This document shows positions 585 to 38,100 of a stretch of DNA of 64,000 nt, piece after piece. The stretch spans positions 14,322,001 to 14,386,000 of the forward strand of contig NC_088788.1 of the NCBI RefSeq assembly GCF_949628265.1, in the 5' to 3' direction. Within the stretch, counting starts at the first letter, position 1. Every line of letters starts with the position of its first letter. The notes under the pieces were generated by a model. That model saw only the letters and a program-made list of their open reading frames with translations, was not told the DNA's origin and did no database searches. Position numbers and translations under genes: made by a program. Origin of the DNA: Cloeon dipterum. Its lineage: Eukaryota; Arthropoda; Insecta; Ephemeroptera; Baetidae.

Positions 585-2336
585 TCATTTCCTCTTCATT
601 TTCTTTTTGGCTTCTGGATAGTCATCCAAGTTCAGCTGCTTATGATATTTTTGAAAGACAAACACAAGGTAGAGCGAAGTTGCTTCCCACTCAGACTTGG
701 ACAGAGTTCCTAAGCTCTGTGCCCTGGGATTCCTCCTCAGGTGCTCGCGGGCGTGGTCATAATCTTCTTCTTTGCCCAGCAACGTTTGCTCACTACCCGG
801 TGGGTAGGTTTCGAGAGCGTTGATTTTTTGCAAAAGAAAACGTCCATCGCCATGCACTCGGTCGTAAAATTCAGGGAATGTCGTCTTCTCAATCAACCTT
901 AGGCCGTGCTTCTCAGCCAACTTTACTAGAGTTGGAAAGTGGACTAAGAACTCAGGACAGGAGACCACATCTTGCAAGTGGAAGTTGTACATTGCGCCGA
1001 AGAGGGGGTAACCCTTGCTCTCTTCTTGCATTGTGATTTGATACACCTGAAAGTGGAAGAAGTTTAATTAATTCAAAAGATCCAAAATGTTTTTAAATAT
1101 AAATTTTAGAATTTCACTTGGAAATTGCTAGGAAAAAACATTTTAAATCTATTTTATAACATAATTTTAGTATGAGAACTATTTATTTGACGTTCTAAAT
1201 AAATTGATGTGGAATTTTTACTCAGCAGAAAAATATAATAAATCGAATTATTTACTCTAAACCAAACTCAAGCAAAAAAGGCAAAAAATCGTAATTTAAA
1301 ATAAAAAATATACAAAAATACAAAAAACTGCTCACTCCAAAATGTGCGACATTTTTATAATTGACAAAGGAAATGATGATGACACTCACTTCGTTACCAA
1401 ACTTGTCTTCGCCTGCAGCCTTGTGCCTTTTGACTATTTCATACGCGTTTGGTATTGTGCCTATAAAGTATCCGCCAATTTCCAGCTTCTCTGCCGCATT
1501 CTGCATCATGCAGTTGGCCTGTTGCAGACTCTCAAAGCAGTAGTGGAACGCGAACTGGCAGCTGACAAGATTGAAAACGGCCTGCCTATCCTTGTACTTC
1601 TCCCTGAGCAGTTCCTTGGTGCAGTCGGCAGTGATGAACTCGGCGGTGAAGAGCGGGCCTCTTTGCTTTTTCTTCATGTCGGCGAACCTGTGGGAGTACG
1701 AGTTTTTAATTCATTCTTTGGATTACCTCTGGAGGCTCACCTCGTCTCGCAGTGCTCCATCGAGACGGCCGCGACGTCTGCGCAGGTGACGTGACTGACG
1801 TTGCCCCGCATCCACTTGAGCAGGTCGCCGCCCTTGCCGCAGCCCAGGTCGAGCACCTTGATCGTGGTCGTGCCCTTGGCGCGGATCCTCTTCAGGTACT
1901 CGCCGATTTGCATGCTTTTCACCCAGTTGTTGAAGTTGCGCATGAAAAAGATGCGGGTCTCCTTCCTCGCCTCCAGTCCTGCGTTCTCGATGGCATTGTA
2001 GTGCGAGGCGACCACCTCCACGGCCGCCCCCGGCGTCGGCAGGCTCGCGCCGCCGCCGACGGCCGCCTCCGGCACCTCGATGGGCAGCTTCTCTGCCTCT
2101 TCCGGCGACTGCTTCCTCACCGGCTCGTCTGGAGATTTTCTTACCGGCTCGTCTGGAGATTTTTTTTGCGCCTCGTTCGAATCCGAGTCGCTCAGGTCGG
2201 GCAGAAATTGCTGCTGACTGCCCGAAGACTCTGCTTCGGCAGGTCGACCCTGGTGCGGGTCTTCGTCGAAGAGAGACGGCATCGACGCTGACATATTTTC
2301 GATTTGGTGTTTGCGCGATTGCGATTTGTTTGGCAC
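585..2336 (-). CDS. RNMT: mRNA cap guanine-N7 methyltransferase (three exons, 451 aa)
   Basis: This nuclear enzyme methylates the 5' guanosine cap of nascent mRNA using S-adenosylmethionine. Exons run 2336-1741, 1687-1390 and 1046-585. The introns of 53 and 343 bp both have GT-AG ends, and the joined frame stays open. Residues 1-105 are a low-complexity acidic and proline-rich tail, as is usual before the catalytic domain. The fold starts at VASHYN, followed by the SAM-binding loop DLGCGKGG at 163-170. Exon 2 carries the AEFITAD strand and the QFAFHYCFES core motif (about 243-252). Exon 3 has YPLFG, CPEFLVHFP and the near-C-terminal GTLSKSEWEAT block, all characteristic of animal RNMT. Length is close to the human enzyme (about 476 aa). 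The first Met at 2336 is chosen; in-frame Mets a little downstream remain possible. The N-terminal tail contains an 8-residue tandem repeat encoded by a 24-bp duplication. Confidence 0.94.
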
Positions 2337-4197
2337 GAGTCGTGAATACTAACCTATGTGGACACTGATGAATCCGGCCATGTGTTCAGTTTTCGGACGG
2401 CGCTAAAGGTTTTGGAATGGAACGGGCAGCGTGTGCAGTGATCGAGTTTTTGTTTACGAATCACTCGGCTTAGCTGCACTTCTTGTACTGCACTGCACGG
2501 ATTTACTCTGATTTATGTGTATGTGCTCCAACTCATTGAAAATAAACACCAGCATTTCTTTCGTTCGCGCTCTCGACACCCACAGCGCCATCTCTACGCA
2601 GATGCATGAACAAGTCTCGCAAGAAAAATCCCTATTTTCCTCTAAATGACGATCTAATATACATACATATAAAATTTGGGAAAATTATATCACCTAAAAG
2701 ATAATAAAAAGTGAAGTACTAATATCGCAAAGATAACTTTCACTGTTAGGTCCCTATCATCCTGATCTTTTATGGGAATAAACGAAAAAGTAAGCGAGGT
2801 ATGCAATCCGCTTGACATTTCTATCCTGCTGGTTGCATAAGCACCATAGTCAGGTGGAAAATAATTTTGAATTTTCCTTTCGTTATAAGGTATAACAAAA
2901 ATGATTGCGTCTGATAATTTGTTGCTAATTTTCTGTTTTAAAGCGGAGGGGGAAAATCGCTGTTCAAAATTAAATTTATTAAATATTTTCAAGAAGTTGT
3001 TTATTCATGTAACATTATAATATTTGGTGCAATGTCAACGTTGAGAACTAATATGAATTTAAATTATAAGTTTTTTGATTGGAAAAACTAATCCAAATCT
3101 TTAACGCAGTGCCGATAAATTCACTCAAAGCTGTTTTGGATCATCAATCCCTCATCATCAACAGCTAATAATAATTATTGTTCTCTTCAAAAACATGGGG
3201 ACCTGCGTGCCTCTTTTTTCAAGCTCCGATCCAACCTCCAACAAAACAAAATCAAATCGAGTTTTGAACTGGCAGCTTGATGCTGCTGGGATGCAAAACG
3301 TTTCTATTTCCCCTTTATAATTAGCGTTTTTGGAAAACTATTGCTATTCTAGATCATTTTGAAAAATTATTTTCAGGCGTTTTCGGCTGCACAGGACAAC
3401 TATATATATAAACTACAATTGTGTGCGGTTTAAAATATCGGAAAATTAATTATCAATGTTTGTGAGAAGAAAACTGAATGCTGCGGCCGCATTTGAGACC
3501 AGAGCTCAAGCAAGTCTCAAAATGTTTTGATTTTTAGTTATTACAGTAATTCGAACTGCTATCCAAATGCATTATATGGTCTGCGAAGTTTTGAGGAAGC
3601 GATAGATTTTTTCCCTGCACATTTGCAACTTTTTCGATTTTTCGACCGGATTCTAGCGCGGCGCTGCGTGGATGGCTGATATCTCCACAGTAAAATTCAA
3701 TCTCATTGAAGGAGGAATGTCCTGCCGCGAAAGAGATTGGAATAAGATATTGGTTATAACTGTTTAAAGACTAGAGAAATTTTTCAGAGCAAAATAAATT
3801 TATGGTGAAGCTAAAAATAATACTAATTCTTAAAAGCACTCAAAAAAATAGATCGTTTTAGTAGCAGATTTTTTAGGAAACTTTATTTTCCTGTCTGTAT
3901 TATAGAATGCAAAAGTTAATATTTTTACATTAATGGAAGGTAAACCTGCAAAAATTCTGATTTAATCCGAAGAGCTATACACTCGTTTTTCGAGTTGCTT
4001 TCTGATGCTTTATGTAACCGAAAGAGGGCACATCCAGCATTCAATTTAGAAAATCTGCTGGTGATGAGCATTGACCTCAGGTTCCGGCTCGGTACCGCCT
4101 TGGCTCGCCTACTCTCTTTTATTTGAACACGCACACCTGTTTTAAAAATAAACACATGGAAGAAATCTATTGATCAGTATTTATCAGACGATAAAAA
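2337..4197. other. Intergenic region between divergent RNMT and the caspase-NACHT gene
   Basis: AT-rich sequence of about 1.9 kb between two divergent start codons, so it should hold both promoters. No TATA-initiator pair stands out. Open frames at 2690-2992 and 3925-4155 on the minus strand have no recognisable features. A five-codon upstream ORF (4156-4173) precedes the proposed start of the plus-strand gene. Confidence 0.5.
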
Positions 4198-7100
4198 ATG
4201 GCAAGTTCACTTCAACATCTTGGTGAGAAAAAATCTGTTTTATGTATAATTGTTTATTCTCACACATTTTAAAGCAGTCAGATCATATAAATATATGTGG
4301 AATATAGAATTTGTCCAACAAGAGAAAAAGAGGTGAGAATAAGAGGGCATTATTTCAGTTATCCCAACTTGATAAAATTCTACCTCGAAGGGCAAAGCCG
4401 AAATGGGCCAAGTTCCAGACAAATCACATAACAATATAATACTTTAAAATCTTGATTTCACACACGTGCTGCACACGAAGGAAACTGCACCGCAGAGCAG
4501 TCTTTCAAAGAGGGAGGCATAAAATATACTATATCATTCCACTCAGTCACTATCCTATAGTCACATTTATTAACATTATTATATGTTTTTGGGGTTAAGT
4601 TATTGCATCTCGCTGATTGTAGGGAAAACTGAAGGATCGCCAAATGAACCGTCATTGCTTGGTTATTTTGAAGAAATACAAGAGGCAGCTGAAAAGTATT
4701 TTTGCCAATATAAAATATTACTGTTTTTAAATAATTTCCTTATTATACATTTTAGTGTGTGCGTTTTGGTTATCGACTACAAGTTTGAGAAAGACATCAA
4801 CCACATCCGTTATGGTTGTGAAAAAGACAGAGAAAACTTGAGAGAGACCTTTTATGTCAGAAGAAATTGCAGATTTTGCCAGCTGCTCTCTCCGCGAAAG
4901 GAAGATTTGCTGCGAATTATTTCGAATGAAGACAACCTCTTACAACTTTTTGACTCGCAAAGTAAATTCAACGATCAACAAATCAAACTAAAATTAAATA
5001 TAGCCTGTATATTCTTTGATTTACAGCTCCACCGTCAGTTTTTATTCTTTTTATACTATCACACGGAAAAAGAAACGGAATTATTGCCACAGACCATAAA
5101 AATGAGTCAGGCAAATACGTTTCCTTTTCCACAACCGAGATATTGGACAGCCTCAAAGAACTGAATAGCTTCAAGGACAGTCTGAAACTAATTTTCTTCG
5201 CAGTGAGCCAATATTGAGTTAAATTAATTTATGATTATTGACGAGAAAAATGCGTAGCCCTGCCGTGGTGATGAAGGCAACCCGTTGCTCCTCTCCTCAA
5301 AATTTAGCTCAAAAAGCTCTTGCAGCGTCAACACACTTCCCAATGAGCCGAATTTTGTGATTTGCTACTCGACGGTAGAGAGTATATTTTTCCTTAAGCG
5401 CCTGAAACACCACTTTATATTTATTTTGTTTATTTTAGCTACCTTAGCGGAGAGAAATGCTAAATTCGGGACAGTGTTTGTCCAGAAAATTTGCGAAGTA
5501 CTCAATACCACCGAGAAAGATGTTCCTTTGACTGTTTACCTGACTCTAGTGCAGAATAAAATCCACTCATCAGCTAATCAGAAAGGCCAAACACCGGAAA
5601 TAAAATATTTCCCTCACAAAGGCTTCATGATTATGAGGTATTATATTGTTCATGTTAATTTTCATTGAATATCAACGCACTGTTTTTAGAGTGAAAACTC
5701 CAACTCCTACAATCAATGAGTACGATGGTGTTTGGGATCCCAGGCCAACGCATCAGGCCACCAGATCGAGTTTTTTCCCATGGCTCTCCTCTAGCGGCGA
5801 AAGAAACGTGCGAGGAAAAAAAGCTATTTTGATTTGTGATTACTTCGATAAGAACGTACAAACGCTGGAACAGATTTTGAGGGAGAAAGTCAATTTTGAA
5901 ACTAGCGTCGCAAACAACTCGAATGTGGATTTGCAGAATTTGTACGAAAAAGGTTTGTTTTTTCAGCACTATACGTGTGTCACACATTTAACGGATTTTT
6001 AGTTCAAGGAGAGCAAAGTGATGTTGGCTGCGTTGCGGTTTTCTACTTTGCTAGAATTTGTGTTGGTGTTGACGGTGAAATTTGCGTCTCGGTTGAAGGA
6101 GGTACCGTGCCAATTTGTGATATTATCTACCGATTTGTTGGACCGTCGAATGAAAAGTGGATTGGGAGGCCGAAATTGTTTTTCTTTCAAAATCAAGCAA
6201 CATCCAGCGATGCCTACCACGAAAAAGTAGTGCATTTAAAATAAAATTTAATTTTTCAACTTAAAGTGAATCATTTCAGGCTGTGGGTTCATTATATAAT
6301 ATCATCAGCACAAATCACAGCGGACTGTTTGTGCAAATTCAACCAAACGGCGGTACATTGATTTTCAAATTAAGTATTACTTCTAATAGTTTATATTTTT
6401 GCTTTAGATGATGCAAGTCACCAATTGGTCCGGATGTTTGACAACCCTGAAATACGAAATGGAAAGAAGAGTTTGCAAGAGGTGGCTGCTGAAACGATGA
6501 ATAGCTCAAGAAAAATGGTGAATAATGTTTTATTACAGCCCCAAATTATGTCCACCTTGCAGCACTTGCTCGACTTCCCAATTTGGCCTGTCAGATTTAT
6601 AAAGCCAAGATTCGCGTCTGACTACTACGATTTGAATTTCGATGAATTGCTCCTTGAATGCGAGAGAGACTATTTTCAGTCACACGATCAGAATGAATAT
6701 GAATACCGCGTCAGGCTTTTGGTCTCTGGGGCGGGATTTGGAAAGACGGTTATCATGCGGGAGATGTCGGAGCATTTCAAACGAATACAATGCGAAAAAA
6801 ATGTCATAAGGTGGCTGCTTTTGAGCGAGTACGATTTTATCGACGACTGTCCTTCGTTAGGCGTACGCGAATTTCTCACCAGAGCGAGTCGCGATTTTCT
6901 CAGACTCGATGTGCAGAGAGTGATGGAATTAAAAAACGTCATAATATTCTTGGACGGATTTGATGAGTTGTGCGAAAGACTAAGACCGAAAATTTTGAAA
7001 TTAATAAGGGCGATTTCTGAGCTGCGCCTGCCTTTGTGGGTTGCCAGCAGGCCGCAAGAAAAAGATCTCCAATTGTTGCTCGAGGATGTATCCCCTGAAA

Positions 7101-9643
7101 TATATAACATCCATCCATTTGATGATTCGGAGCAAACCGAGCTGCTGAAAATCATCACGAACAAAAGTGAGGAAGAGTGCCAACGTATTCAGAGTCGATT
7201 CACTGTCATGGAAAATAACAACATTTTAGGAAACCCTCTTCATCTGACCATGATTGCTGAAACTCCCGATATTGCGGAAAACGCCTATAGCTTGTACCAC
7301 TTTTATGAAAAGGTGCTTGAGCATCGTGTGCGGGAAGCGTTAAAAAATAGAGAGTGCTACGACGAAAGCAACAGGAGGTTTAACTCGATCCTGAAAGACA
7401 GGATGAGCCTCTTGCAAGACACTGCTGCATATTACCTTTTCAGAACCAGTTCTGACGTCAAGTTACAGCTGAGCAAATCGGAAATCGAAAAGGTGAATAA
7501 CACAGGCATAGCCTCGATAGACCCCTCTTATCAGGGAAACCAGACGGACATAACCTTCCTGCACCGGACGTTTGCCGAGTTTTTGACGGCCAGGAAATTT
7601 CTTGGTGAAATCGCTCAATCTGGATCCTCTCTTTACGAGATTTTTTTCGAGCCAAGCTACCAGTGGTGTAGGTTCTACGTCGACGTTTATCTGTCGGACA
7701 TTAAAAATCGGAGTCGGGATTTGTGCACCAAGCTTAGTGACTATCTTTTGGAGACGGAATGGAGGTTGGATAGAGTGTTTTGGGAAAGGTTGACGAACGT
7801 TTTTGAAATTTTGGAACATGAGAAATTGTTAGAAACCGCGACAGATTTGTCTACCATGTCGCTGGCGAGCAGTGCATGGCCAGAAGTGGCAATGAAGTTG
7901 ATCGACATGGGCGTTTTGCAAAGGACTATCGAGGAATCGGAGAAAAGGGAACAGAAAACGGCTGTGATGAAACTGCTCATAAGTGCGGCCGTGGAAAGGG
8001 GGCACGATGATTTGTTCAAGAGGTACCTTGACGAGTGGCCAAACGTTGATGAATATCTCAATACGAAGGAAGAGACGTACACACCGGAGGGCTACTCAGA
8101 AATCATGGATTCGCCGCTCTTGGTCGCGGCCTGTAAACGGCAGGTTAACATTATGCAAATTTTGATTAATAGAGGGGCTGACGTGCAGCAGTGCTTCGTT
8201 GATTTAATTGGAAAAGACGACAAGCAGAGCGATAATGATCAGGTCGTCGGTGATGATTTTCTCGAACCAATAAAACTTCTAGTAAAAGCCGGCGGCGTGA
8301 ACGTGAACACAGAAATAGGGATTGAAAAGACGACGGCGCTGCACTGGGCTGTGAAAAACAACCACTTGCAAACAGCAAGGTATCTTTTAGAAAATGGTGC
8401 GGAGGTGGACGCACTTGACGCAAAAGGCAGGAGCCCTCTCCACGAATCAGCCCAGAGCTCGGAGCTAGAAATGTGCCACCTTCTTGTTGGACGGGATGCG
8501 AATTTAGACGCACTTACTTCGGCAGGCGAGAACGTTTTGCATGTAGCTGCTGGAGGAGCGCAAGAAATTAATTTGTTTTACTTCTTGGACATGAACCGAT
8601 TTGACTTATCAGTAAAAAATGCGTTGGGACAAAATGTGTTGCACCTTGCGGCGCAAAAAACGTGTCTGTTCACATTCGAGAAAATACTAAACAATAAGTC
8701 CAGGGAGTTGCTACTGGACAAGTGTGCTTCTGGTCGAAACATTTTGCACTATGCCTGCCTTGGCCGCAATCTGAACGTCATTCAACATATTTTGAGTTTA
8801 AATTGTTTTGACGTAAATGCGCGAGATAATTTCGGCAGAACACCTCTTCTCTTGGCAGTGGCATCCAGCCAGGTTGAATATTATTGCAGGCACCATGAGA
8901 CTGACGTGGGTGAATTTTCGATAGCAAAATTGGCAAATCTGCTTCTGCAGCAAGGCGCCGACATTCTCGCAGTCGACGCAGAGCTGAATAATGCGATGCA
9001 CTTATCCTGCTTTTCGGCCGACACATCAAGTGTCGAATATTTAATGAGAACCGGGCTTTTCGATTTAAACGCAAAAAATCTTGCAGGCGAAACTCCTTTG
9101 CTAGTAGCCGCTACTTCTGAGAGGAATTTAACAATATTGGAAGAGCTGGTTGAGAATGGAGCAGACATTCTCGCCGCTAACAATCAAGGGTGCAACGCGC
9201 TGCACTATGCTTGCAAATTTAGAGAGCCAGATTTCGCGAAAAAGCTTTTCGAGTTGGGCCCGTTTGACGTCAATGCACGAAACGCTGCCGGAGAAACACC
9301 GATACTCATTGCAGCCAAGCACTCGTCACTGTCGACGATTTGGTATCTGACGGACGACATGAATGCCGACATGACTGCTGTTGATTATGCAAATCGAAAC
9401 GTTCTCCACCTCGCAGCAGAGTTTAATTCAATTGAGGAAGTTCAGTATTTCATCTACTATGACGTGTCGTTGGTTTCGAGCAAAACTGCAGCCGGAGAGT
9501 ATCCGCACCAACTTGCGTTGAGGAACCCGCGAAAATTGGTGCAAAAACTATTCACCTCGAACCTTGACTCACTGAATAAGGAGGTGTTTGAGGAAAGCTG
9601 TGCTGTAGCATTTCTAGGCGAGATGTCAAAACTAAGACAATAG
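4198..9643 (+). CDS. Caspase - pseudocaspase - NACHT - ankyrin repeat protein (ten exons, 1532 aa)
   Basis: Exons are 4198-4222, 4623-4695, 4756-4961, 5027-5202, 5258-5381, 5439-5637, 5690-5952, 6003-6226, 6280-6352 and 6408-9643. All introns are GT-AG and every phase matches. Residues about 33-265 form a peptidase C14 (caspase) domain. It has R51 in IRYGCEKD, ENLRETF, catalytic His114 in LSHG, catalytic Cys162 in PCRGD, and AERN in the p10 half. Residues about 311-510 repeat the caspase fold (RPKLFFFQ), but the His and Cys positions are Arg373 and Gln420. A NACHT module follows: Walker A SGAGFGKT at 561-568, Walker B LDGFDEL at 636-642, and a FLHRTFAEFLTA end motif near 837-850. Residues about 1015-1515 hold about twelve ankyrin repeats. 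There is no CARD or death-effector prodomain, and the p20/p10 linker is short. I infer a cytosolic STAND-type sensor that controls a caspase. Exon 1 is short and least certain; Met at 4583 is an alternative start. Confidence 0.85.
4756..5637 (+). other. Caspase domain 1, catalytic dyad intact
   Basis: Coding exons 3-6 of the caspase-NACHT gene. The p20 part contains ENLRETF and the LSHG and PCRGD catalytic motifs. His114 and Cys162 are 48 residues apart, within the caspase range. The p10 part contains a YSTVE strand, the AERN segment carrying the substrate-pocket Arg, and the FVQKICEVL helix. The linker between p20 and p10 has no Asp apart from D165 just after the active site, so classical Asp-directed maturation is not obvious. 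Confidence 0.85.
5690..6600 (+). other. Caspase-like domain 2, degenerate active site
   Basis: Exons 7-9 and the start of exon 10. AILICDYFDK resembles the first caspase strand, VAVFYFAR aligns with the strand that normally ends in SHG, and GRPKLFFFQNQ aligns with GKPKLFxxQAC. The His and Cys positions are Arg373 and Gln420. The segment SLYNIISTNHSGLFVQI resembles a p10 strand and helix. Overall similarity is weak outside the RPKLF block, so a profile search is needed to confirm the borders. Confidence 0.7.
6680..7620 (+). other. NACHT NTPase module
   Basis: Walker A lies at 6725-6748 (SGAGFGKT) and Walker B at about 6950-6970 (LDGFDEL, with the paired acidic residues typical of NACHT). An ASRPQ segment (sensor-1 type) and GNPLHLTMIAE (the GxP motif) follow. 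The module ends with a FLHRTFAEFLTA motif, as seen at the end of the winged-helix region in NACHT proteins. The first glycine of the P-loop is Ser. Confidence 0.85.
8084..9600 (+). repeat. About twelve ankyrin repeats (protein repeats)
   Basis: Successive units of about 33 residues show the ankyrin pattern, for example TALHWAVKNNH then LLENGAEVDA, SPLHESAQ, NVLHVAAG, NVLHLAAQ, NILHYACL, TPLLLAVA, NAMHLSCF, TPLLVAAT, NALHYACK, TPILIAAK and NVLHLAAE. Two units carry longer inserts (near 8180-8260 and 8870-8930). The array is encoded in one uninterrupted exon. Confidence 0.9.
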
Positions 9644-10194: not shown

Positions 10195-11411
10195 TCAGTC
10201 ATCTTTTGTGCACATGAAGAATTGTGGTCTGTTACAATTTAAGTCGACCAATTTGGCTGTTTGGATTTGGAGAGCTGCACAGGATTCCCCAACTCTTCCA
10301 TCATGGTTATTAGGTTGACCTCCGTAGAATCCTGAATCCCACAAGGCACTTTCACTGCTGAGCTTCTCTTTATTCAACCACTCGAAGTTTCCGTTGCTGT
10401 CGCCAGTGTAAGAAAGACCAACCCAGATAAACTTGACTGCCGACATTAATGGTGAATTAAAGCCATTCATTTCGTTCGCATATTGGACACTGACCTGATT
10501 CACTCATTTTTAGCTCTGAAAAAATTTGGTGCAATTTTGATGAAATGTCCGACATTAGAGTGCTGGTTAAATTCGTAACTAATGTAGCTCCGATTGCTGA
10601 ACATTGAGCAATTGAGTCCTTCCATTGCGCCTACAAATTTAATTTTGTTGAATTTTTATTATTTTGGTTTACTTTTTTCTTACCACAGATTTGAAACTAG
10701 TTTTTAAACAGTAGTCTCTCGAATCGATTTGAAAGCATATATGTTCATCTGAGGAAAAACTCATTAACTTGGCTAACATCTAAGATTTAATTCCAAGAAG
10801 GTGACTTTTATATTACCTTTAGCAATTTTTGCAGCTTCTGTTGTTACGGACATGTTCTGCAATTTCAAGGAACATAATTTCAGTATTGTTTGACCAAACT
10901 TAAACTTGTTCAGCTTTAAAATTCCTATCGCGGAAAAAGTCTACACATTATGCTAATAAAATAACAGCCTGAAATTTGAGGAAATTTGGATTTATCAAGT
11001 TTCCTTTAGATTGCCCCTTCACATTTCATACACGCTATTGATAATGCTGAAAACACTTTACAAGCGAATAAGACCTAAATTAATTAATCATTCACACACT
11101 TTGTAAAAATGTATAAATGAAATATATAACCTCTGATCTGCTTGATAGAGGAACAGCAGTGGTTACGGATATTGTCTCAATAGGCCCTCTAAGAGAGAAA
11201 ATTAAATGGATTTGTTGTAGGGAGTATATTTTCATATATACTATATTGTATTCAACATACGTGTAATCTTCGTAACCCTGTTTAAAACAAAATAAATTAA
11301 ATTCACTCAATAATAATTTATGATTTCTGCAAATACCTCACAGTAAGATGAGTCAAAAAAGCTAGCAAGGAGCAGCAGGAAAAGCAAGTCCTTTTCGTGT
11401 ACGGTCTTCAT
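10195..11411 (-). CDS. Secreted C-type lectin 1 (seven exons, 210 aa)
   Basis: Exons 11411-11337, 11277-11261, 11188-11131, 10856-10817, 10748-10684, 10630-10495 and 10436-10195 join in frame. The smallest exon is 17 bp and one intron is 58 bp. The first exon encodes a charged start and a strongly hydrophobic core (LLFLLLLASFF), a likely signal peptide. After a 45-residue linker, the lectin fold shows WKDSIAQC, GATLV, IWVGL (about 134-138), FEW, and C183, C198 and C206 with FFMC at the end. The sugar-site tripeptide is QPN (171-173), neither the usual EPN nor QPD. The WND motif is replaced by VDL before C198, so calcium and sugar binding may be altered or lost. Such lectins usually act in haemolymph as pattern-recognition or clotting factors, but no ligand can be inferred. 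The 58-bp intron has a GTCAGT donor and is the weakest junction; an extra exon in the larger gaps is possible. Confidence 0.78.
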
Positions 11412-27100: not shown

Positions 27101-30100
27101 CTGTACAATATGTACAAGAACTATCTGCCACCCAAGCTGGCTAGACTAGATGCTAGGATGTTCTGCAAGGTGAAAGTCAATATTTATTAAACCTCCTTTT
27201 TTACTCGAAATATTTTTAGGCCCTGTTTCAAGCTCTGGGACTTAATGAGAATGACTTCCGATTTGGCTTGACCAAAGTGTTCTTCAGACCAGGAAAATTC
27301 GCCGAGTTTGACGAAATCATGAAGTCAGACCCTGAGAACCTGGCCAATTTGGTTGCCAAGGTGCAGAAGTGGCTGATCATGTCGCGCTGGAAGAAGGCCC
27401 AATATGGTGCTCTCTGCGTCATCAAACGTGAGATAACAAACTTTCGCAGAATTTATGGTGTTCTAATTTTCAATGTAGTTAAGAACAAAATCGTCTACCG
27501 CGCCAAGAACCTGGTGGTGATCCAGAAGACCGTGCGGATGCACCTGTGCAAGAAGCAGCACCAGCCCAGGTACCGCGGCATCAGCAAGATCAAGAGCCTT
27601 AGCTCGATGCTGACTAGAATGGAGCAGTGCATCAGCCAGATGAAGAAGGACAAAGATTCCAGTGCGGCAGAAGTGACCAAGCTGAAGAAGGACATGGATG
27701 CTGCCATCCAAAGAATCAAGGTTCGATTTTAAATACCAATTATGTGTCTGTCCTTCAATTTTTATTGGATTGACATTATCTGTTTTGTAGTCCAATCCAA
27801 AGATTAAGCCGTCAGAAGTGAGCCTGCTGCATACCCAGCTGATGAATCAGGCCAACACTTGCATGGCCTCTGTGCAAAAAAGAGTGGAAGCGCAGAAAAT
27901 TGCTGAGGAGCAGGAACGTATCCGCAAGCTGCAGGAGGAAATGGAAAGGGAGAGAAAGCGAAAGGATGAGGAGGAGCGCAAAAAGAAAGAAGAAGAGGAG
28001 ACAAGGAAAAAGTAAGCAAGGCCGGTGTTTAAAATTTCAATTTTCACACTGATTCTTTGTTTTATCACGTATAATTGAAGAAAATTCCTTTCTTTTGTAT
28101 TTTAAACATCTAGTAGTTTAAAAGTAGGTTAAAATTTTTATATTGAATGAATAATTTATTAAACGCAATTATCCGTTCAATAATAAGCTTGCAATCGTCC
28201 GTATCGATTTTTACAACTCTTTTTGCTGCTTCTGTTAAACTAGTTTTGTTTTTGTTAAACATTTCAAAATATGATACTTTTTACCATTCACCACAAAATA
28301 TACATTTTTACAAATATCTTGGGGTTCATAACAATACATCTGATTGACACAGAAAAAATAGTAATATCCAACAGAAACAAATCGAGTACATGCATGCCTA
28401 TCCCCTCCAGATGCCATTGAACATTGCTTTAGCCTAATAGAATTCATCACAAATCAAAATCATAATATTGACCTTGGTGTCACAAAATATTAATATTTTT
28501 TTATCAATTCTCAGAAACTCCTTATTTAAACTTGACCAATTGCACAGGAAATCAGAGATGGAAGCCAGAAGGAAAATTGAAGAGGAGGAAAGAAAGAAGC
28601 TTGAGTTGGCGGATAAGATACTGGCAGAGAAACTCCAGGTAATTTGGTGCTCCACTATTTTTTGCCACTTATTAAGTCAAGTTAATGCTTATCAATTTTT
28701 TGTGGCTCTTAATCAGACTGATTGCAATAATCTGAAAAGAGAATTTGAACTTGTACTTATTTTAACGTCAGGCTGAGATGGAGAAAGAGAACTCCAAGTA
28801 CAGGGAGCAAATAGAGCAAGAGAGAAGAGACCACGAGTTGGCTTTACGGCTGGCACAAGAAACGCACAGCCAGGTCGAGGACATAACACCAGTGCGGAGG
28901 CAAGTGTCCAAACAACTTTCACACTTCAAATGTTTTCGTACCAATCAATGTACATACATTTTCTCTACCAATACCAACAAGGAGGGGTTTCAAGGGCACA
29001 AAATGCACTATGTAATTAATACAATTCATTGGGTATTACACACATGGGAACAATACTAAAATACCGATGGAAAGAAGCAGACGCGACATTTGATTTTCCG
29101 CTTCAATACCTTGCTTTTGTTCACCGTGAATGTGCTTGTTGTCTCTGACTGTGCGGTCGCCTCAATGTCTGTCCACAGCCTCAGCAGGGTGGCGGAATCC
29201 AAGAGTCCCAACAACTATCGGCTCAACAGGTAAAAGTCAACATTATGAACATTTCGTAGCTCCAGTCTGTAAATAGTGTGCTCGCTCATGTTTAACGCTG
29301 TTGGTGAAATGCTTAACACAAAATATTTCACACATTATTCAGATTAATAATGCTGGTATGACAGGTCTGAGAATGTGCGAGCGCAGCAGGCAGCCAGCAA
29401 GGGCAAGTACGACCTTTCCAAGTGGAAGTATTCGGAGCTCAGGGACACGATCAACACTTCATGCGACATTGAGCTTCTGGAGGTCGGTTTAATATGAAAC
29501 TTAATTTTTAAGGACGTGTTATAGCTGTATTAGTGACTGTTTTACCCGATTTTTGCTTCTATTTTTCAATTTAGGCTTGCAGAATTGAGTTCCACCGCCG
29601 CCTGAAGGTGTACCACGCCTGGAAGGCCAAGAACAAGAGGCGATCCACCATGGATGAAAACGAGAGAGCGCCACGATCAATCATGGAGCAAGGTAAGCTG
29701 CATTTTTTCTCTTTAAGATTTTTTATTTTAAACCTAATTTCTGAATTGTTTAAATTTGTCTGTTCATACTCGATGAAGTCGCCTATTCAAATAAAACTAG
29801 GCCTATAAATTAATTTTACTGAGTTTAGTGTGTGCTCAATGTGTTTCCCTCTTACGAATTGCAGCTAGCAAGCCTTTGGTACACGTCAACAACAATTCCA
29901 AAGTTCCAATCATCACAGAGCAACATCGTTATTTCCGCATTCCGTTCATTCGTCCTGGAACTGGTGGCGTCAACGACCAAAACAACAAGAGAGGCTGGTG
30001 GTATGCCCACTTTGATGGACAGTACGTTGCTAGGCAGATGGAGCTCCACCCTGAAAAGCAGGCCATCCTCCTCACTGCTGGTGAGTACAGAATTTTCATT

Positions 30101-35159: not shown

Positions 35160-38100
35160 TTACATGACGCAGGCCCCCGGTGGCGTCCAGCCCCCCATCA
35201 GTCGCTGTAGTTCTTCGGCGACCGCAATGCTGAGCCGGTCCTGATTTGGTCCCGCCACCACCTGCGAGAAAAAAAACACTTAATCAACGACAAGTGATAC
35301 AAAGAGAGTGTGATTGTGATGGGGTTACTCGTTAGCAGCTATTCACCTGATACCTCCGAGGCACGGAGCGCAATTTTTCTACAAGTGTTTAGATACAAAA
35401 CGCGATTTGCTGGAAACAAGACTGAATGCTTATTTTGTCTGGTGAGTGCGATTGGATCGGATTTGATTGCCGATAATTGGTCTGTGAGTGGGCGTTTGCT
35501 CTCTTTTATTTGCAGAAAGAAACCATAGAGATCCTTTGAATGGGAATCACAGAGATATGTAAAAATACATCATTTTATACAGCTCAGCCAGCTTCGCTGC
35601 GCCGCGCTAGCCGTCTAATTTTAGCTTACGTGGTCTGCCGCCAGCCGCCTTGACTTTGGCTAAGCTGGTCCAGCCACGCCAGTTAAAAGGTAAAAAAATC
35701 AAGTGTCGGAATAAATTGGTCGCTGACCGTTTTGGCCAGTCAAACGTTAATTTTCAAATTTTTTCAGCCGCCAGCAAAAAAATGCTCAACCACCGCCGGG
35801 CCGAACTTCGGTTAAAGGCAGTTCAGCAGTCAGCCGCCGCCTAAAATTACACAGCTGAAACCTCTAATAAAATTATCTAAGAGAGAAAAGGTTTGAAGTA
35901 TCCCTCTGTTTCAATCAAGATATTAGAATTTGGCAAATCGCTCAATTTAAAAATAAAAAAGGAAAGGAAATCCCCGCCATCATGATAGCTCCCAATCTAT
36001 GATAAAAATTTGGCTCAAACCTGAAAACCAAGTGGGAGCCCCTGCGAGTTGAAGCCGACGGGCACCTGCGTCGACGGCAGGCCGAGCGTGTTGATTGCCA
36101 TGGCGTAGAGCACACCTGAGGTCTTGACGTACATTTCGTTGTGGAAGCCAGCAGGCGTGGGGTGCGTCGGGTAGAGCAGGACGGCGTCGTCGCCGAGCAG
36201 CAGGTTCAGCTTCTTGCTCAGGGCCTCGTTCTTCGCCAGGTAGTGTTGGAACTTTCTCTTTGGAATGAAGCAGTTGACGTCGCGCAAGAAGTAGAAGGCC
36301 AGTGTGGAGAACGCCAGCTTAGACAGGCCGAAGCACGACTTCAGGATCTCCACGTACAGGTTTAGGCTTTGTTTGGGGTTGTAAGGGTTGTTCAGTAGAT
36401 CAGGTATGCCATCCATACCGAAGAACACGGCAGAGCTGATCTCCAGAGACTGGCCGAATTCCTTCAACTTGGCCTGCGAAATTAATGTTTCAGTTTTCGA
36501 CTAGTTTCGCTCATCAATAAAAGTACTTTTTCGACGTAGGCGTTGTGTTCCTTCCTCAGGGCCTCGGCTGAGTGCCTGATGCACTTTTTGATTGACTTGT
36601 CCACCGGCAGCACGGCCATCGAGAAACCTGCGTCTTCCATGTAGTATATCCTGAGTTTGGATATATCGACCTGTTAAAAGATAAAAAAAACTTCAGAATT
36701 ATTTTCCAAGGGGAATTTGTCGAAACAGTTCTTCTTTTGATATTCTCTCATGAGGCCTGTAAATAATATTATTTCTTCGTGTACGTGTAAGAGTTTGATT
36801 TCAATGTATTTACAGGTGCAGCAATTTTAGAGTGTTTGACTCTATCATGGGCATGTCCCTCCAGCTCTTCGAAATCGCAAGTTGAAATAAAGGTAACTTA
36901 CTTTCTCATCCAGTCTGAGTTTAGCGGCGTTTTCGCCGGAAAGGACTTTGACCATGGGCCTCAGGTCCTCGGCGTACCTTGCCATGGGACCAATCACCAA
37001 GTACTTAAGGAAGTTGGGGTCTTCGTCCACATACGGGTAGTGTCCAGTGATGGGTATGATTCCTGCATGAAAAAAAACATTATTAGAACACGTGCGAATG
37101 ACTGAACTGAGGGGGAGGTCTTACCTGGTGTTGGCTTGTGCCCGTAAATTCCGTTGTACATGGCCGGGATGCGGATTGATCCAGCAATGTCTGAAGCGAG
37201 GCCAATCACCGAGCCAGCGGCGCCGATTATGGCCGCCTGTAACAATATTTCAGGTCAGGAATAACGCCAAATATTGATATTTTCAGAGTTGGATTTTCAT
37301 AATTTCCGTTTTTTTCAATTTAGTGCACAGGAGTTATCTGATCCTGTGATTTTTAAACAAAAAATAATTTGCTGTGAGGATTAGAGTGTGAATCGCTAGT
37401 TTTTTATCTTTTAAATGTTATAATTATTGAACATAAAATTAGCCAACAGTATTCCATTTAAAATGGATTATTTTATACAAAATAGCTTCCGCCATTAAAT
37501 TTGATTATAACTTATAAAAACTCAAGAATCGTAGAAGATGGCTTTGATAAAAACATTGCTCTGCATTATCAAGCTCTTAGTTCCAACCGTGGTCAAGAAA
37601 TTATTTCAAGCAGTTTTCTTGGTGCAATTATTTGGTCTTGATCCTTCTCTCAATAAATAATAATTTCCCTCTCCACGCCGCTGAAAGGAAAACTAAACGA
37701 GCTTGACCTCGCCACCAGACGATCCTCCCGAGGTCCTGCGCGTGTCGTACGGGTTGCTGGTGGAGCCGATGACCAGGTTGTTGGTTTCCCAGCTGAGGCA
37801 CAGCTCAGGGGTGGTGGTGATGGCCAGCACGATGGCGCCAGCTTTCTTCATGTACGCCACGGCGCCTCCGTCTCTTTCGGCGCGCCGGCCTTTGCGACCG
37901 ACCGAGCCTACCACGTAGCTCATCCCTGGAAAAGGTCACGAACCATTTTCAGCAAAAATTGAAATGTCTGGCCGCTACTTGCAGCGCATAAATTTGACGG
38001 GCCAAAATCAAGGTGTGCCTTGTCGCGTTCAAGGTTTGCGTTTGCTAATTATTACGCGGCGAGAGCCTTTTTATTCACGATGAGCACATGGACGCATCGT

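Follow-up and report, generated by a model that had tools for sequence, protein, structure and literature searches.

A Cloeon dipterum gene predicted to join caspase, pseudocaspase, NACHT, and ankyrin units, and its large genome-wide family

The window analyzed here is a stretch of 64,000 nucleotides of Cloeon dipterum (C3:14322001-14386000), taken from a genome of 190 Mb in 10 contigs, five of which measure 33-43 Mb. The window carries at 4198-9643 (plus strand) a gene for a protein with caspase, NACHT, and ankyrin parts. This gene adjoins, in divergent orientation, a three-exon gene for an mRNA cap guanine-N7 methyltransferase (585-2348, minus strand). C-type lectin exons lie downstream at 10198-10503 (minus strand) and 17.1-17.8 kb (plus strand; Lectin_C, 4.5e-8 and 2.8e-9), and a third one is probable at 16.0-16.8 kb (minus strand), as judged by eye only. 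The window also features a Myosin VI lever-arm exon (27220-27732, plus strand; 4.4e-26) and an amidase-like exon (36015-36500, minus strand; 4.8e-5, below cut-off). Rfam yielded no match within the window.

The NACHT gene is modeled as ten exons on the plus strand, all with GT-AG borders and with agreeing phases, which join into a single frame of 1532 codons plus stop. An earlier note on this DNA had proposed one gene with these exons; the coordinates proved exact, and a chance reading frame was rejected as the source. Exon 1 (4198-4222, 25 nt) carries the proposed ATG and a GT donor in phase 1. It is the weakest exon of the model, being without support from the paralogue models, and another start codon is possible. 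Exon 2 (4623-4695) codes for a brief leader that bears the motif LG[FY]F of the family and lacks a death-fold prodomain. The first caspase domain, C14a, begins in exon 3 (4756-4961) and continues through exon 4 (5027-5202), with the catalytic His114 in LSHG (codon 5062-5064), and exon 5 (5258-5381), with the catalytic Cys162 in APCRG (codon 5261-5263), to exon 6 (5439-5637), which holds its small-subunit part. Exon 7 (5690-5952) codes for a linker and for the beginning of a second caspase-like domain, C14b, which extends over exon 8 (6003-6226) and exon 9 (6280-6352) into exon 10 (6408-9643). The latter contains the end of C14b, the NACHT, the winged helix, the ankyrin array, and the stop codon.

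In the joined protein, Pfam-A identifies Peptidase_C14 (4.5e-24), NACHT (4.7e-8), and Ank_2 (7.6e-57). Together with a family profile of C14b and the motifs, these matches bear out the earlier note, which had read a fusion of caspase, pseudocaspase, NACHT, and ankyrin repeats from the letters. The Peptidase_C14 match lies within exons 3-6 (aa 37-257) and covers positions 5-224 of the 233 of the profile, hence the large and the small subunit. It depends on the joining of exons, since none of the exons of the gene reached E ≤ 1e-3 in a genome-wide C14 search conducted exon by exon. The route from animal NLRs to caspases is generally taken to run via death-fold adaptors. The window protein has no match to CARD, PYD, or Death domain (Pfam-A, E ≤ 1), and the protease is, as the earlier note had it, built into the sensor. 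No match to WD40 was found in the window protein either (Pfam-A), and no LRR family matched in it or in the scanned paralogue exons, which feature ankyrin families instead. PADLOC and NCBIfam returned generic ankyrin or NACHT matches; a weak match to BrxC (0.0049) was taken as chance.

C14a resembles animal caspases: the first 268 residues of the window protein match caspase-3 at 1.5e-10, and the C14a family profile matches caspase-3 and CED-3 in a search of the Protein Data Bank. The catalytic His and Cys, H114 and C162, are present and are conserved in the C14a of 40/40 paralogues. The active-site pentapeptide departs from QACxG: It reads APCRG in the window protein, and the Gln site of QACRG is occupied by Gly (18), Ala (4), or Ser (2) in the 24 aligned C14a rows and by Gln in none. 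Two further sites correspond to arginines of caspase-3 that we take to be those of the S1 pocket. Arg is found at the first in 20/24 rows and at the second in 11/24, column counts that leave out L061 (a locus without the caspase); the window protein carries both. Because Gln is replaced throughout and the second arginine is retained in fewer than half of the rows, doubt falls on the Asp specificity of C14a and, in consequence, on autocleavage after Asp—to the greatest degree for the chromosome-4 cluster. The same two departures are what speaks for a caspase fold that acts as a nonproteolytic scaffold for assembly, or as a protease of another specificity. This reading is considered quite improbable, given that all 40 C14a domains keep His and Cys while the adjoining C14b has neither, and that C14a is constrained. 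Among 55 pairs with dS < 0.9, the 25 closest show a C14a omega of 0.22-0.59, and the domain is under purifying selection. A C14a that works as a protease remains the favored reading.

The C14b of the window protein matches Pfam C14 weakly when taken alone (0.0033, below cut-off). A C14b profile built from 10 family members matches solved caspases, at best with 7.3e-9, but the match is confined to the large-subunit part. Where the alignments place the catalytic His and Cys, the window protein has V376 and Q420 (both in exon 8). Among 40 paralogues, the residues aligned with His are E, V, I, M, T, or F (two are gapped), and those aligned with Cys are Q, E, T, or F (three are gapped); His or Cys never occurs at either. 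These columns were set by visual inspection of the alignments, and the alignment to solved caspases concurs with them. As judged by its sequence, C14b is a caspase fold that lacks the catalytic dyad and in this respect resembles FLIP. The kinship of C14a and C14b rests on their separate matches to caspases, since a profile–profile comparison between the two gave no match (probability 0.4%).

The linker between both domains carries Asp280-Gly in the window protein (NEYD/G; Asp at 5724-5726). An Asp directly before Gly, Ser, or Ala occurs in the linker of 31/41 members, the window gene included, vs 12.4 ± 2.7 (maximum 21) in 2000 shuffles of the linkers; common ancestry of the members inflates the observed count. 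Of the 29 sites at a common place, 16 have Thr before the Asp. This Asp–small residue pair could be an autocleavage site and is treated here as a candidate for one. An alternative role for C14b is that of an intramolecular inhibitor, which caps resting C14a until the linker is cut and the caspase released. The missing dyad in 40/40 C14b domains and the position of the recurrent site between C14a and C14b are both in line with it. We hold this alternative to be unlikely, if the most serious of the competing ones, because the linker site is missing from 10/41 members and because the human pseudo-caspase FLIP(L) pairs with caspase-8 into an active enzyme, according to passages of PMC7586951. A C14b that supports the activity of C14a is preferred.

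The NACHT of the window protein (aa 562-701; 33.5 bits, Pfam cut-off 26.7) features Walker A as GAGFGKT (6728-6748, plus strand) and Walker B as FLDGFDE (6947-6967, plus strand), both in exon 10. As a single sequence, the NACHT part matched no NLR among solved structures; only the family profile (11 members; Protein Data Bank) matched NLRs, with NLRP3 nearest (1.4e-7) and NAIP following (3.2e-5). The winged helix contains His840 in FLHRTFAEFL (7562-7564, plus strand), which is invariant in the 11 aligned members. In alignment A3 of the NACHT (11 rows), the residues H385, T387, E390, F391, and L392 are invariant and are aligned to NLRP3 FIHMTFQEFFAA. The winged helix with this histidine is of the NLR type, and the NACHT of the window gene is on these residues and matches classed as NLR type. 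This assignment had been overlooked by the earlier note, as had the recurrent candidate cleavage site between the caspase units and the large genome-wide family. The C-terminal part of the protein is an ankyrin array (8111-9640, plus strand) of approximately 13 repeats by eye and 11 by a simple pattern.

A NACHT search of the genome at E ≤ 1e-3 yielded 101 matches, the window gene included; the search was exon-wise with only the best candidates scored and may miss or split genes. Thirty matches fall at 0.79-4.7 Mb on C2 (37.5 Mb long) and 45 at 29.2-36.1 Mb on C4 (36.4 Mb long), in both cases near one end. The window gene on C3 has its closest other NACHT match 3.3 Mb away. In a tree of 46 rows, in which 12/43 inner branches lack resolution and the placement of long rows is insecure, the closest company of the window gene is L032 (C1) and L048 (C3), two dispersed single members; the grouping has support of 99/97 and stands apart from the tandem clusters. 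A spliced-alignment script, tried out on the window gene beforehand, served to model paralogues at 47 of the other 100 NACHT loci. This sample is nonrandom, comprising best matches and loci picked to spread over the chromosomes; six loci (L014, L017, L018, L022, L025, and L027) were reached only via the caspase search and are tallied separately. The profile alignments were built from 8 to 11 chosen members.

C14a was scored alone at each locus, with the reversed sequence and the antisense as controls. Forward scores range from 147 to 552 over the 47 loci, reversed ones reach at most 196, and antisense ones at most 185. An upstream C14a stands above all controls in 40/47 loci (score >200; lowest 243), or in 34/41 when the six caspase-search loci are set aside. 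If the latter share extended to all 101 NACHT matches, the genome would hold about 80 such genes. C14a is at noise level in the other 7/47 loci, namely L066 and L045, L061, L062, L068, L079, and L080. C14b is nevertheless above controls in L045, L062, and L066, so C14a may be lost there or lie further upstream. L066 (C4:8632950-8636450) has neither catalytic residue (LSYG and MRYTG), with a C14a score within the control range, and is possibly a decayed or a pseudocaspase-only member. The long exons of 10 paralogues were scanned and feature NACHT in 10/10 (9 above cut-off) and ankyrin in 10/10 (L048 below cut-off).

Intron sites were compared in 40 paralogues, within 4 residues of the site in the window gene. 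The introns at aa 160 and 202 are common to 40/40 paralogues with identical phase in all; those at aa 268, 356, 429, and 455 recur in 36, 37, 37, and 39 of the 40, with the same phase in 35, 34, 35, and 35. Closer to the N terminus, the intron at aa 33 is found in 22/22 covered paralogues (20 in phase) and the one at aa 102 in 22/33 only. These data bear on a wrong joining of two adjacent genes, a caspase gene followed by a NACHT-ankyrin gene, which the earlier note had envisaged as a split between 5637 and 6408. Such a split is extremely unlikely: The introns between the domains (5638-5689, 5953-6002, 6227-6279, and 6353-6407) span just 50-55 nt each, their phases are continuous, and their sites recur in 36-39/40 paralogues. 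Less probable still is that a metacaspase-NACHT gene was recently acquired from bacteria or fungi by horizontal transfer. Such fusions occur in bacteria (passages of PMC3501461) and protease-NLRs in fungi (passages of PMC12881547), but the window gene contains nine introns, and within the Protein Data Bank its caspase matches animal caspases and its NACHT animal NLRs. At least 10 bacterial loci in a collection of genome contigs are related to the NACHT, with an identity of only 22-26%, and a crude look at the match frames found SHG in 1/10. Both alternatives were rejected on the evidence of introns, phases, and matches, which leaves one resident gene as the reading followed here. Searches of viral contigs with the C14a profile and the NACHT profile confirmed no relatives.

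Further searches addressed related domains in the genome. At E ≤ 1e-3, one CARD and seven Death matches were found, the nearest about 0.2 Mb from any NACHT match (positions compared by eye). The NB-ARC search gave two matches, which both coincide with NACHT matches; hence, no separate Apaf-1-type gene is shown at the exon level. The gasdermin search gave no match and no signal anywhere in the genome and, hence, says nothing on the presence of gasdermin. Caspase exons also cluster away from NACHT matches at C5:27.147-27.160 Mb and C4:1.03-1.04 Mb, so tandem conventional caspases seem to be present in the genome as well. The genome further gives five matches to 7tm_6, the olfactory receptor family of insects (best 8.7e-12), and one weak match to odorant-binding proteins. 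An exact (TTAGG)6 was not found, which agrees with what passages of PMC8977481 report for mayflies and dragonflies.

The ankyrin and NACHT parts were compared in 8 pairs, aligned directly with each other, of which 7 are usable; the NACHT omega of the 25-pair set is less safe, since those alignments ran through the window protein. The omega of the ankyrin part is 0.29-0.88 vs 0.19-0.78 for the NACHT and is the higher one in 6/7 pairs, with L041/L053 as the sole reverse case. No omega >1 occurs in this direct set. The pair L038/L039 (C4, ~33.0 Mb) has zero synonymous changes in the NACHT, yet differs in the ankyrin part, a contrast that points to gene conversion or to exchange in the very recent past. 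Tandem expansion and fast change of the sensor are frequent in defense genes, without being proof of such a role. A family devoted to apoptosis, development, or selfish killing instead of pathogen defense would be compatible with the domain content, which alone leaves the stimulus unfixed. The big tandem expansions near one end of two chromosomes and the faster change of the ankyrin part in 6/7 usable pairs stand against it and render it very unlikely.

The reading favored here, with moderate confidence, is that of a self-contained, adaptor-free NLR-protease, with a caspase activated on a NACHT platform. It builds on the architecture, the dyad that C14a keeps and C14b has lost, a NACHT of the NLR type, the size of the family, and the constraint on C14a; its steps are modeled on NLRP3-type NACHTs, caspases, and FLIP(L). 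The ankyrin repeats would sense a ligand or a guarded protein, and sensing would open the NACHT switch and result in oligomerization. The N-terminal caspase domains clustered in this way would turn active by proximity, with the tethered C14b probably serving as a built-in dimer partner of C14a, in the manner of FLIP(L) with caspase-8. Once active, the caspase may cleave its own linker behind the recurrent Asp and leave, or remain on the platform, and cleavage of its substrates would lead to cell death or inflammation. Taken to its full extent, the insect might own an arsenal of one-piece inflammasomes—each with an ankyrin sensor, an NLR switch, and a tethered caspase:pseudocaspase pair self-freed at the Asp site—that operate without adaptor or separate protease. 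This fuller picture is tentative and is held with somewhat more doubt than belief. If true, an animal would have condensed the inflammasome into a single protein, as fungi and bacteria have; direct activation from sensor to protease and the partnership with a pseudocaspase could be tested in one chain; and this insect may be able to detect danger and cleave proteins with no need of the customary adaptors.

The earlier note had called an insect example notable, in agreement with passages of two papers: Drosophila is without NLRs and arthropod NLRs are without an N-terminal effector end (PMC11508797), and NACHT is absent in Drosophila (PMC2575513). Among the open literature matches listed, as far as their passages go, none describes an animal caspase-NACHT fusion; most subscription papers and all preprints lie outside this scope, within which the family is unusual among animals. 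The matches further concern bacterial conflict systems with caspase and STAND (PMC7159879, PMC8195603), fungal NLRs (PMC4986451), placozoan NLRs (PMC6321704), the apoptosis network (PMC2246300), and an echinoderm NLR (PMC13133943).

Animal NLRs such as NLRP3 and NAIP share with the window protein a NACHT with Walker A/B and the winged helix FLHxTFxEFL. They differ in that the window protein features ankyrin repeats instead of LRR, and a caspase and a predicted pseudocaspase in place of PYD, CARD, or BIR. Animal caspases such as caspase-3 and CED-3 likewise consist of a large and a small subunit with a His/Cys dyad; C14a, however, has no prodomain match, is fused at the N terminus of a pseudocaspase and a NACHT, and carries APCRG—in the family mostly GPCRG—instead of QACRG. 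FLIP(L), as portrayed in part by PMC7586951, is a caspase fold without the dyad and a possible partner of an active caspase like C14b, but C14b shares one chain with the active caspase and is without a DED match. The bacterial metacaspase-NACHT-WD40 proteins in passages of PMC3501461 also combine a caspase-superfamily protease with NACHT and repeats and confirm the parallel to bacterial STAND proteins drawn by the earlier note. Their protease is of the metacaspase type, their repeats are WD40, and no pseudocaspase is named in those passages, whereas the window protein has an animal-type caspase and ankyrin repeats. The fungal NLRs with an S8 or CHAT protease, which control gasdermins (passages of PMC12881547), extend this parallel, having a protease as the N-terminal module of an NLR sensor; here the protease is S8 or caspase-like CHAT, the NLR is fungal, and again no pseudocaspase is named in the passages. 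The TNFR-caspase, LRR-caspase, and Death-NACHT hybrids of amphioxus (PMC2575513) are short-cut fusions of a receptor part and a caspase in an animal, and the passages of that paper name no fusion of caspase and NACHT. An NLR or STAND protein with a built-in protease is, hence, already known; the tethered pseudocaspase is the most distinctive part of the protein encoded in the window.
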